Source of the DNA: Akkermansia muciniphila
GTDB lineage: Bacteria > Verrucomicrobiota > Verrucomicrobiia > Verrucomicrobiales > Akkermansiaceae
Assembly (NCBI GenBank): GCA_945870545.1
Contig: CAMBTF010000028.1
Location: 1 to 10,522, forward strand
DNA length: 10,522 nucleotides
Direction of reading: 5' to 3'
Below, in pieces: positions 8,510 through 10,522 of this stretch. Each line of letters starts with the position of its first letter. Within the stretch, counting starts at the first letter, position 1. A program made the position numbers and the translations under genes. Under the pieces are notes generated by a model. It saw only the letters and a list, made by a program, of their open reading frames with translations. It searched no databases and was not told where the DNA came from.

Positions 8510-9469
8510 ATGCATCCGCGCGCCGCTTTTGCCGGTCTCCTACTAGGAGCTTCGTCGCTCATCGCCCAGGAAGGGCCGCCGCCAGAATCGCCGCTGAGCC
8601 CGAAGGAGGATGCCGTCGAGCAAATGCTTTCCGAAAGGGAATCCCCCGAAGCGCTGCAAAAGGCCATCAAGACCGCGCGTGACCTGAAGGTTTCCGAGCA
8701 GGTGATCCTGGAGGCGCGTTTCCTCTTCCATGTCGATCGCGCGGAGGACAAGGAGATCGCGGCGCTGCTCCCTGATTTTCTCGCGTTCAAGGATAAGTTC
8801 AGTCTCGAAGACTCCGAGACCTTCGCGGGCGTGGACGACTGGCTCGCCGTGACTGAATACGTACAGGCGCTGGCGGCGCTCGAAAAGGGTGATAAGGACG
8901 GCTTCAAAAGGCACATCACCGAGGCGTTCTGGCTCAGCCCTCGTCAAGGCGCCGCCTTCGCCCCACACATCGACCGCATTCGCCTGATGGATGCGATGAA
9001 GGTCGTGCGCGTTGATTTCGGGAAAGGCTACACCGACACGCTCACAGGACAGCCCACGGACTTCGGTAAGATCATCGGAACAAGGAAAGGGCTGCTGTTG
9101 CATTTCTGGTCCCCATGGAGCCAGGAGTGCGAAGCCACGCTCGCGGACTTCCTGATCTCCGCCGAATATCTATCCGCTAACGATGTGGCGGTGGCTTCGG
9201 TTCTTCCCGAGACATCCGCGAAAGTGATCGCCGATGCGAAGACCATGCTCAGCGCGGCAGGCAAAAAAATCTCCGGCTCATGGATCGTTGATTCGAAATC
9301 AAATCCCGTTAGCGCCCAGCTCAAGGTGCAGAGCGTGCCGGTTGTCGTTTTGGTTTCACCAGATGGAGCGGTTCTTTTCAACGGTCATCCTACCGACGAG
9401 GAATTCTGGAAATCGCTCGGGAAAATCAATCCGGCCATCGTCCGTCCAGAGATGCGCGGCAGGGATTAA
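8510..9469 (+). CDS. Exported thioredoxin-fold protein with a degenerate SxxC active site
   Basis: 319 aa. Residues 1-19 look like a Sec signal peptide (RAAFAGLLLGASSLIA followed by QEG), placing the protein outside the cytoplasm. Residues about 30-165 are mostly helical and charged, without a family I recognise. Residues about 170-310 form a TlpA/thioredoxin-like domain: strand LLLHFWSPWSQEC and cis-proline loop QSVPVVVLVSPDG (Pro277). The usual WCxxC reads W-S-Q-E-C, so the first, nucleophilic Cys is Ser204 and only Cys207 remains. It therefore cannot be a normal dithiol oxidoreductase; a binding, monothiol or structural role is possible. The gene follows the LysM gene by 4 nt with no evident ribosome binding site. 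Family call is good, function open. Confidence 0.82.
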   Translation: MHPRAAFAGLLLGASSLIAQEGPPPESPLSPKEDAVEQMLSERESPEALQKAIKTARDLKVSEQVILEARFLFHVDRAEDKEIAALLPDFLAFKDKFSLEDSETFAGVDDWLAVTEYVQALAALEKGDKDGFKRHITEAFWLSPRQGAAFAPHIDRIRLMDAMKVVRVDFGKGYTDTLTGQPTDFGKIIGTRKGLLLHFWSPWSQECEATLADFLISAEYLSANDVAVASVLPETSAKVIADAKTMLSAAGKKISGSWIVDSKSNPVSAQLKVQSVPVVVLVSPDGAVLFNGHPTDEEFWKSLGKINPAIVRPEMRGRD

Positions 9470-9484
9470 TTACGGCGTTCATAG

Positions 9485-9506
9485 AACTACTACTTAAATA
9501 GTAGTT
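9485..9506. promoter_or_regulatory. Inverted repeat 1: possible operator or weak 3' hairpin
   Basis: Arms AACTACTA (9485-9492) and TAGTAGTT (9499-9506) are perfect inverted copies around CTTAAA. The ACTACT/AGTAGT core loosely resembles MecI/BlaI operators, which contain TACTAC and GTAGTA half sites. It lies 15 nt after the stop of the thioredoxin-like gene and 116 nt before the BlaI-like start. As a terminator it would be weak: an AT-rich stem with no following T run. Confidence 0.5.
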
Positions 9507-9531
9507 GAGCCCATCTCGGACCCGGAAAAAT

Positions 9532-9553
9532 AAATTACGGTTTTCCGTAATTT
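9532..9553. promoter_or_regulatory. Inverted repeat 2: possible operator of the BlaI-like gene
   Basis: Arms AAATTACGG (9532-9540) and CCGTAATTT (9545-9553) are perfect 9-bp inverted repeats with a TTTT centre. The location 70 nt upstream of the BlaI-like start fits a dimeric winged-helix repressor controlling its own gene, as is usual for BlaI/MecI. Binding by this particular protein is an inference. Confidence 0.5.
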
Positions 9554-9622
9554 TCGCGTATTTTAACTTGACGGAAAAGTTAATTACTAGTTTCCTCGTA
9601 ACCAAGAAACGAAAGTTCACCA

Positions 9623-10327
9623 ATGGCCAAGCCATCACACCCATCAAACCTCGAACTCCAAGCACTGTCTGTCTTATGGCACGACGGTCCTTCTACTGTG
9701 AACGCAGTACATGGTTCGCTCCCGGATGGCCGCGAGCGCGCCTACACCACGGTGCTCTCCGTGATGCAAAGCCTAGAACGCAAGAAGTTGGTGAAGCGCA
9801 TACGGTCGGGCAGGGCCCACACCTATGAACCCGCCTACTCCCAAGAGGTCATCGTGCGCCGCGCCACGGACGACTTCATCACTAACGCTTTTGGAGGACG
9901 CCTCGGTGAGGCCGTCCTCGCTACCCTCTCCGCCGGTTCATTAACACCGGAAGAGAAAACAAACATTGAACGCGAACTCCAAAGACACAAAACCATGGCT
10001 GCAAAAAAAACAGTAAAGAAGGCCGCGGCCAAGCCCGCGAGTAAACCCGCCGCAAAAAAAGTTGCCAAGAAGGCGCCGGCTAAAAAAGCCGCTGCCAAAA
10101 AGGCAGTGAAAAAGGCAGCGAAAAAAGCACCCGCCAAGAAAGCACCTGCTAAAAAAGCTCCGGCTAAAAAAGCGGTGAAGAAGGTGGCGAAAAGCGCCAA
10201 GAAGGCACCTGCTAAAAAGGCAGTTGCTAAAAAGGTTGTAGCCAAGAAGGCCGCCGTGAAGAAGGCACCAGCTAAGAAGGCCGCCGTGAAGAAGGCACCA
10301 GCTAAAAAGGCCGCCAAGAAAGCATAA
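9623..10327 (+). CDS. BlaI/MecI-type winged-helix regulator fused to a histone-H1-like Lys/Ala tail
   Basis: 234 aa in one open frame. Residues 1-122 are a full-length BlaI/MecI/CopY domain: [19 protein letters not shown], the recognition helix region [19 protein letters not shown], wing [15 protein letters not shown], then the dimerisation helices ending [17 protein letters not shown]. Relatives are dimeric repressors of about 125 aa that usually stop here. Residues 125-234 are instead a low-complexity tail with 45 Lys in 110 residues, the rest mostly Ala, Val and Pro ([12 protein letters not shown] repeats) and no acidic or aromatic residue, as in histone H1, HupB tails or chlamydial Hc proteins. 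The protein should bind DNA specifically through the wing-helix and non-specifically through the tail. An ATG at 9995 could start the tail as a separate 110-aa protein. No BlaR1 protease gene is adjacent; a terminator follows, so the gene is probably monocistronic. Confidence 0.88.
9995..10324 (+). repeat. H1-like tail-coding repeat region, with possible internal start
   Basis: This encodes the Lys/Ala tail (110 residues). It consists of degenerate 15- and 30-bp units for KKAPA and [10 protein letters not shown]. The last two 30-bp units (10251-10280, 10281-10310) differ at a single base, which points to recent duplication. It opens with ATGGCTGC and an A8 run (10003-10010). The peptide beginning [13 protein letters not shown] looks like the start of stand-alone bacterial H1-like proteins, so independent translation is possible, although no Shine-Dalgarno site precedes it. 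Confidence 0.8.
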
Positions 10328-10347
10328 AGTAATATCACCACCGTGAA

Positions 10348-10379
10348 CAGCTTGGAGCGCCCTTAGTGGCGCCGAGCTG
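10348..10379 (+). other. Imperfect hairpin in the 3' untranslated region
   Basis: CAGCT (10348-10352) pairs with AGCTG (10375-10379) and GCGCC (10357-10361) with GGCGC (10368-10372), with an asymmetric internal loop and a six-base apical loop CTTAGT. It has no T run, so it is not a terminator by itself. It could stabilise the mRNA 3' end or be part of a small RNA. Confidence 0.4.
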
Positions 10380-10406
10380 TGACCGGAGTGGATGATATCT
10401 CAAAAC

Positions 10407-10442
10407 AAAGCGGGAAGCCATTTGGCTTCCCGCTTTTCTTTT
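10407..10442 (+). terminator. Rho-independent terminator of the BlaI-H1 gene
   Basis: A perfect 13-bp stem, AAAGCGGGAAGCC (10407-10419) and GGCTTCCCGCTTT (10424-10436), closes an ATTT loop and runs into TTTTCTTTT. The stem is GC-rich in its core and bounded by A and T runs, so it may act in both directions. It ends the transcript about 80 nt after the stop codon. Confidence 0.92.
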
Positions 10443-10522
10443 GCCGGACTATCCCAGTTAACTGTTTCTTTTTGTTTCCCCACGGAGCGTGATGTGGTTT
10501 GATCCGCCAGTGAGATACGTTG

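Follow-up and report, generated by a model that had tools for sequence, protein, structure and literature searches.

How bacteria outside the model phyla package their DNA is little known. The closest described relatives of the gene analysed here are the BlaI/MecI/CopY repressors (PF03965; PDB 1sd4, 2g9w), with which it shares a winged-helix domain and palindromic TAC...GTA sequences upstream; passages of PMC7253601 describe related BlaI, MecI and CopY sites. A folded DNA-binding domain and a basic tail are likewise joined in HupB, a mycobacterial HU with a eukaryotic-like tail (PMC5676037); HU, however, is no sequence-specific repressor. AlgP (PMC9239181) and chlamydial Hc1/Hc2 (PF07382) are stand-alone H1-like proteins of the same Lys/Ala/Pro-rich composition as the tail-only product proposed below. 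Unlike them, the H1-like protein proposed here would be nested in a repressor gene. Shorter C-terminal products from inner starts in the same frame occur in the nested genes of E. coli infB and clpB; the products proposed here differ in being a site-specific and a non-specific DNA packager, in an arrangement that one genus seems to have dismantled. We know of no nested start in HupB. A search of open-access PMC, within the portions of text that it returned, found no report of a BlaI domain fused to an H1-like tail or of such a nested start. Joining a sequence-specific repressor to a histone-H1-like tail would connect binding at particular genes with compaction of DNA in bulk, and the fused protein would work like a tailed nucleoid protein of the HupB type without being one.

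We analysed a window of 10,522 nucleotides, the complete contig C28 of a 2.0-Mb, 72%-complete draft genome in 317 contigs, whose sequence ends at position 10522. Near this end a single open reading frame for 234 residues (9623-10327, forward strand) runs without internal stop or frame break:

9623..10327, forward strand: fused gene, BlaI-type repressor plus H1-like tail, 234 aa (open reading frame, Pfam match, orthologues).
9644..9982, forward strand: Penicillinase_R (BlaI/MecI) domain, residues 8-120 (PF03965, E 7e-24; PDB relatives 2g9w, 2k4b and 1sd4).
10407..10436, forward strand: intrinsic terminator-like hairpin 3' of the fused gene, a 13-pair stem followed by a T-rich tail.

The Penicillinase_R profile scores 84.8 bits against a cut-off of 22.6, which makes the protein a member of the BlaI/MecI/CopY family, and the winged helix is clearly predicted. 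Lys makes up 41% and Ala 39% of the tail after Met125, which contains no Asp, Glu or aromatic residue and is expected to be disordered. The open frame, the profile match and the tail composition thus confirm what an earlier note on this DNA had claimed, an in-frame fusion of a BlaI/MecI domain to a histone-H1-like tail devoid of acidic and aromatic residues. The likeness to HC2 is compositional only, as the HC2 histone-H1-like profile (PF07382) reaches 24 bits, below its cut-off of 40. The 110-residue polycationic tail sets the protein apart from BlaI, MecI and CopY, as do the many intragenic motif copies in some genomes. The usual inducer did not turn up nearby either, as the note had remarked for blaR1: no Peptidase_M56 protein (blaR1/mecR1) was found among the eight upstream proteins of the window or ten downstream proteins of relatives. 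Opposite the Asn-Phe of 1sd4 near residue 101, which we take to be the BlaI/MecI cleavage site under BlaR1 induction, the aligned fused protein has other residues. It contains no Cys and therefore lacks the C-terminal Cys-X-Cys metal motif of CopY.

The fusion recurs well beyond this genome. Its repressor half was matched in 48 of 59 genomes at E 0.001 (own genome included and paralogues counted) and, family-wide, in 114 of 195 genomes at E 1e-10; genus g19 (40 genomes) had none among the matches listed at that threshold. Within the genus of the window, 32 of the 36 other genomes had a match, 56-98% identical and with an open frame of 162-295 residues. Outside the family the fused form occurs in several genomes of family f3, where one frame (L096) reads only 104 aa, and once in family f6 (G044). 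Isolates carrying the fusion and the methionine at its junction are Haloferula luteola, H. rosea, Haloferula sp. BvORR071, Luteolibacter pohnpeiensis, L. marinus, Roseibacillus persicicus and strain E54. Whether the fusion is conserved across genera, a point that the earlier note had singled out, is thus answered by isolates of three named genera and by f3 and f6. A tree built from 18 fused and 12 plain BlaI domains places the fused domains together in a single group (support 87/72), so the fusion may have arisen once. Recurring neighbours among 41 stretches are TatD (19), LysM (22) and a thioredoxin-like, TlpA-like protein (25; named by reading, with no Pfam match).

Could two genes have been merged by a homopolymer frame error? 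Several draft contigs end just after or within this repeat-rich gene, as might be expected of an assembly or annotation artefact. Against this, the gene is fused in the Haloferula, Luteolibacter and Roseibacillus isolates, and the same frame is open in the single-contig genomes of L005, L036, L043, L046, L048 and L050. The A8 run, at which the earlier note had pictured a frame break, is variable in relatives (e.g., L036 and L055) and their frame is open. We therefore reject the artefact, whose probability is negligible.

The junction between the two halves carries a conserved methionine, which may be a start codon in its own right:

9995..10327, forward strand: proposed nested in-frame gene for a free H1-like protein of 110 aa (junction Met kept, no other Met in the tail, stand-alone homologues in genus g27).

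This methionine (codon 125, nt 9995) is conserved at 75 of 81 orthologous loci and missing from L056, L057, L060, L096, L110 and L111; three loci added afterwards, L136, L146 and L149, are without it as well. Among the 80 named loci, a set that overlaps with these 81, it is present in 70, and 3 of the 10 exceptions are cut by contig ends. No second Met occurs in 95 distinct Met-bearing tails totalling 10,920 residues, some of them cut by contig ends. In f3 and f6 the linker is unrelated in letters and length, yet the joint still reads TMAVKKK, TMAAKKK or SMAKKK. The codons that follow are also distinctive: the first is GCT in 82 of 95 tails, Ala is encoded by GCT or GCA in 160 of 183 cases within the first five tail codons versus 1509 of 3792 later, and Lys by AAA in 137 of 227 versus 1824 of 4697. 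The 25 bases 5' of the Met consist of 45% A and 34% C. Shine-Dalgarno-like words precede the inner ATG in only 2 of 100 sequences, and the main start in only 11 of 54. Together, the conserved Met, the frozen synonymous sites described next and the stand-alone tail gene of a sister genus point to two products. With moderate confidence, we consider it probable that this one gene encodes two proteins that package DNA and share a reading frame: the fusion itself, and an H1-like protein made separately from the nested start.

Around the junction, selection acts on more than the protein sequence:

9887..10015, forward strand: constrained element within the coding sequence, spanning about codons 89-131, whose synonymous sites are nearly frozen (synonymous-site analysis; absent in five g27 sequences that have a short tail and lack the Met).

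Across 55 sequences from genera g1 and g23, the excess of synonymous codon identity in ten-codon windows was 0.01 to 0.20 over codons 1-90, rose to 0.31 to 0.45 over codons 86-135 and was 0.13 over codons 131-140. The top 40-codon window of the fused gene (codons 94-133; 17 loci) reached 0.379, and the maxima of neighbouring genes from the same loci were 0.105 for TrpF (13 loci) and 0.079, 0.098 and 0.114 for TatD, LysM and the thioredoxin/TlpA-like protein (17 each). The junction signal recurs in g25 (0.27, 14 sequences), g24/g32 (0.35, 7), g28 (0.24, 3) and f3 (0.30, 6); because g24/g32 and f3 also show signal farther upstream (0.28 and 0.19), the constraint is less sharply bounded there. 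In five g27 sequences without the Met (L056, L057, L110, L111 and L146), the junction signal was 0.04, not above the upstream values of 0.08 and 0.04. Synonymous-site and codon data thus agree on selection beyond the protein sequence at the inner start, in keeping with an in-frame nested gene. Overlapping genes in other frames were considered and rejected: the other two sense frames contain stops in most of 54 sequences, staying open in 2 and 4 of them. One antisense frame stays open in 53 of 54, and we put this down to composition; an antisense ORF of the window (9835-10341) does not match the constrained stretch in extent.

The constrained stretch also contains two predicted mRNA hairpins, located 39-101 nt 5' of the inner ATG:

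9894..9919, forward strand: predicted mRNA hairpin H1 (covariation; folding-energy test not specific).
9927..9956, forward strand: predicted mRNA hairpin H2 (covarying third positions of codons 105 and 108).

Standard pairs fill 98.6% of pair cells in 54 close sequences and 91.0% in 51 sequences from several genera. In the 51 sequences, slid controls give lower values, 45 cells show two-sided changes, a number reached by none of 500 shuffles, and 7 pairs have a two-sided change, reached by 32 of 500. The clearest covariation links the third positions of codons 105 and 108, which read CG, UA, UG, AU or GC. Folding energy was not specific: against synonymous shuffles of 61 g1/g23 sequences, the hairpin window had a mean z of -1.51 and other windows of the gene -1.66 and -1.52; in eight sequences without the junction Met the hairpin-window z was +0.29. 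Because of this lack of specificity and because many of the two-sided changes are shared by descent, we hold the hairpins with moderate confidence and regard them as likely real. No Rfam family matched 9400-10522 up to E 1. Across 12 genomes, RNA model R1 found the fused-gene locus in the 7 carriers (E < 1e-33) and nothing else below E 0.1; its best E in five g19 genomes was 0.2. A third hairpin before the inner ATG, in two registers, was seen by eye in g24/g25 (L098, L100 and L105; columns 74-95 of A3).

Is a second protein needed to account for these features? The frame between the two halves is kept in almost all orthologues, so selection acts on the fusion too, and the fusion could be the sole product. 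The Met would then be a relic of the junction and the frozen sites an RNA or codon signal, for example the two covarying hairpins ahead of the tail pausing ribosomes between repressor folding and tail synthesis. However, the constraint continues through the inner ATG into the first tail codons, GCT-GCA-type codons follow the Met, the Met persists across linkers of no common sequence, and a similar tail protein is a separate gene in g27. We therefore consider a fusion-only gene quite unlikely. Another way to read the constrained stretch is as an internal promoter or mRNA-processing site that gives the tail-only protein its own transcript. Some 110 nt of constraint 5' of the ATG exceeds the need of a ribosome-binding site, and codon 107 is TTA/TTG and codon 108 ACG/ACA, each in 52 of 55 sequences, so that TTAACG/TTGACG-like words recur. 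However, a sigma-70 scan of 9400-10522 returned zero matches, no -10 box is recognisable by eye, and covariation of the hairpin type suggests RNA over DNA. An internal promoter or processing site is thus unlikely, and it overlaps with our preferred account in that it, too, yields two products.

Genus g27 is where the arrangement departs from the rest. The tails of the five g27 sequences without the Met are about 24-35 residues long. A stand-alone MAAKK... gene of 58-98 aa was found elsewhere in the genome, by searching with tail proteins, in 8 of 10 g27 genomes (G068, G081, G090, G099, G108, G115, G122 and G150); none was found in G129, and the match in G142 is of another type. The leader of the stand-alone gene is A/C-rich in all eight, with a small hairpin apparent by eye before the A/C-rich stretch, and the first codons are ATG GCC GCA AAA/AAG AAA in the five genes examined. 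No TAC-N10-GTA lies within 300 bp upstream of any of the eight. G068 and G122 have both a fused tail with the Met (L055 and L145) and a stand-alone gene; in G150 (88% complete) the stand-alone gene is present, but no BlaI match at E 1e-10 is listed for this genome. The simplest account would be that the tail protein is a unit of its own. Most lineages would have it nested within the repressor gene, and in g27 it would have been copied or moved elsewhere, after which the nested start and its constraint decayed. G073 (g31), which has a full tail without the Met and no stand-alone match in an insensitive search, and G091 (g28), with a degenerate tail, the Met lost and no MAxKK-type gene at its matches, run against this account. 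The tail searches were insensitive in general, since they missed known nested tails, those of G105 and G077 in one search and those of G136, G077 and G105 in another, so stand-alone genes may exist outside g27 as well. In the draft genome of the window such a search found no stand-alone tail gene; a weak match there (L117:1498-1794, C210) is a different small protein with a Lys/Ala-rich N-terminus, MPAKKTTKK....

These results also bear on how the earlier note is to be read. It had held that homologues all ending near residue 125, with the tail as a separate gene, would speak against a fusion; this is approached in g27 only, where five Met-less repressors stop at about 148-159 aa and the tail is encoded separately, but G068 and G122 keep the longer fused tail with the Met. 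As a whole, its interpretation is partly supported: it stands for a conserved fusion with no blaR1 found among the neighbours covered; it overlooked the junction Met, the frozen synonymous sites and the stand-alone g27 tail.

Where would the fusion bind? Two palindromes precede the gene:

9488..9503, no strand assigned: O1, predicted operator TAC-N10-GTA, inside a 22-bp inverted repeat at 9485-9506 (recurs upstream of orthologues).
9568..9573, forward strand: tentative -35 element TTGACG (recurs by eye upstream across the genus; sigma-70 scan negative, so a putative element).
9585..9600, no strand assigned: O2, a second TAC-N10-GTA just 3' of the tentative -35 (read in the sequence; a similar site at -37 to -47 in ten close relatives).

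Two such sites are found in the window and in ten relatives. Of 79 named loci, 63 have TAC-N10-GTA upstream, where base-shuffled sequences predict 4.0; of 75 sites, 57 fall between -111 and -150. No other spacing between N6 and N14 is seen in more than 4 loci, apart from N7 in 20, which we take to be overlaps of the same repeats.

The palindrome is not confined to this promoter. ACTACGATN4ATCGTAGT, with up to two mismatches, has 14, 4, 8, 5, 0, 23, 13, 32, 35, 24, 8 and 18 copies in twelve genomes, where we estimate a chance level of one or two per genome; the reversed pattern has none in the same twelve, and a spacer one base longer gives 0-2. In the 195 family genomes, exact CTACGAN6TCGTAG occurs 2-33 times in each of 18 g23 (Haloferula-type) genomes, 20, 2, 4 and 21 times in four g28 genomes, 0-15 times in g1 and 0-3 times in g24, g25, g27, g31 and g32, with 0-3 for the reversed control; it is absent from all 40 g19 genomes and from the draft genome of the window. 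We fetched 41 sites in 40 stretches (21 of the 24 sites of G161 and 20 of the 32 of G096); those at the gene's own promoter were among the ones omitted. By greedy ORF calling, 36 lie inside ORFs and 5 between them; codon-position composition favours coding for most, with ORF ends unsure. With 5 of 41 sites between ORFs, a regulon of nearby promoters was rejected. The pattern would suit a protein marking the chromosome, not promoters. That the fusion itself binds these sites is suggested by a copy at its own promoter (G077, G096 and G161); where a lineage lacks the motif, the protein may recognise a different sequence or none. The dispersed TAC-N10-GTA-type palindromes of some genera lend indirect support to the suggestion in the earlier note of a nucleoid protein anchored at chosen sites.

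The same palindromes could belong to other BlaI paralogues, with the fusion an ordinary local repressor whose lysine tail enhances non-specific affinity or search. Polycationic tails are also present on unrelated proteins, some relatives have several weaker BlaI matches per genome, and the window's own genome lacks an exact motif copy. However, sites that are largely intragenic (by greedy ORF calls) are unlike classic repressor operators, and the g19 genomes, none of them among the matches listed, have no exact copy. A purely local repressor is therefore doubtful.

How might two products from one gene act together? The full fusion, presumably a dimer through its BlaI-type winged helix, would recognise the 16-bp palindrome TAC-N10-GTA and repress its own promoter at O1/O2, and its polycationic tail would hold or condense DNA around the sites scattered over the chromosome. 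The free tail protein would be translated from ATG 9995 on the same mRNA, behind an A/C-rich leader without Shine-Dalgarno sequence and two likely hairpins, and would coat or compact DNA without sequence choice. More tentatively, and as a possibility we rate below even, the two would form a two-part chromatin system, in which the fusion anchors at tens of mostly intragenic palindromes, the free protein is the compactor, the anchor sets the level of both through the shared promoter, and the system has been split into two genes in g27. The fusion with its hidden start may be how these Verrucomicrobia package their chromosome. A nested start for the compacting half, visible in evolutionary comparison and apparently lost again from a sister genus, would be a clean and testable case of two proteins from one frame. 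Should the scattered palindromes be anchors, they could be mapped in existing isolates.

Some minor observations concern the surroundings of the gene. Several draft contigs stop shortly past or inside it (the window itself, 10327-10522; L091, L097, L099, L105, L133, L134 and L143), perhaps because the repetitive tail breaks assemblies. The only fused match in f2 (L154, G546) is almost identical to g32 sequences (compared with L133) and is probably a misplaced or misbinned contig. Several MAGs titled Akkermansia muciniphila or Prosthecobacter debontii carry the fused gene, and these species names are probably wrong. Within the window, a sulfatase-family protein (PF00884, 2911-5106) and a glycolipid-synthase-like protein (PF06925, 608-1870) are ordinary neighbours. 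In L085, a pyruvate-phosphate-dikinase-like protein (gene 7, named by eye) that adjoins the g27 gene has a Lys/Ala-rich N-terminus, MAAAKKATKAAKKSAPAKGG, so such tracts occur on an enzyme too. Similar Lys/Ala tails are carried by SWIB, DksA-type and HU domains of other proteins (P0132, P0138, P0141 and P0128), which suggests that such tails have been joined to several DNA- and polymerase-binding folds.
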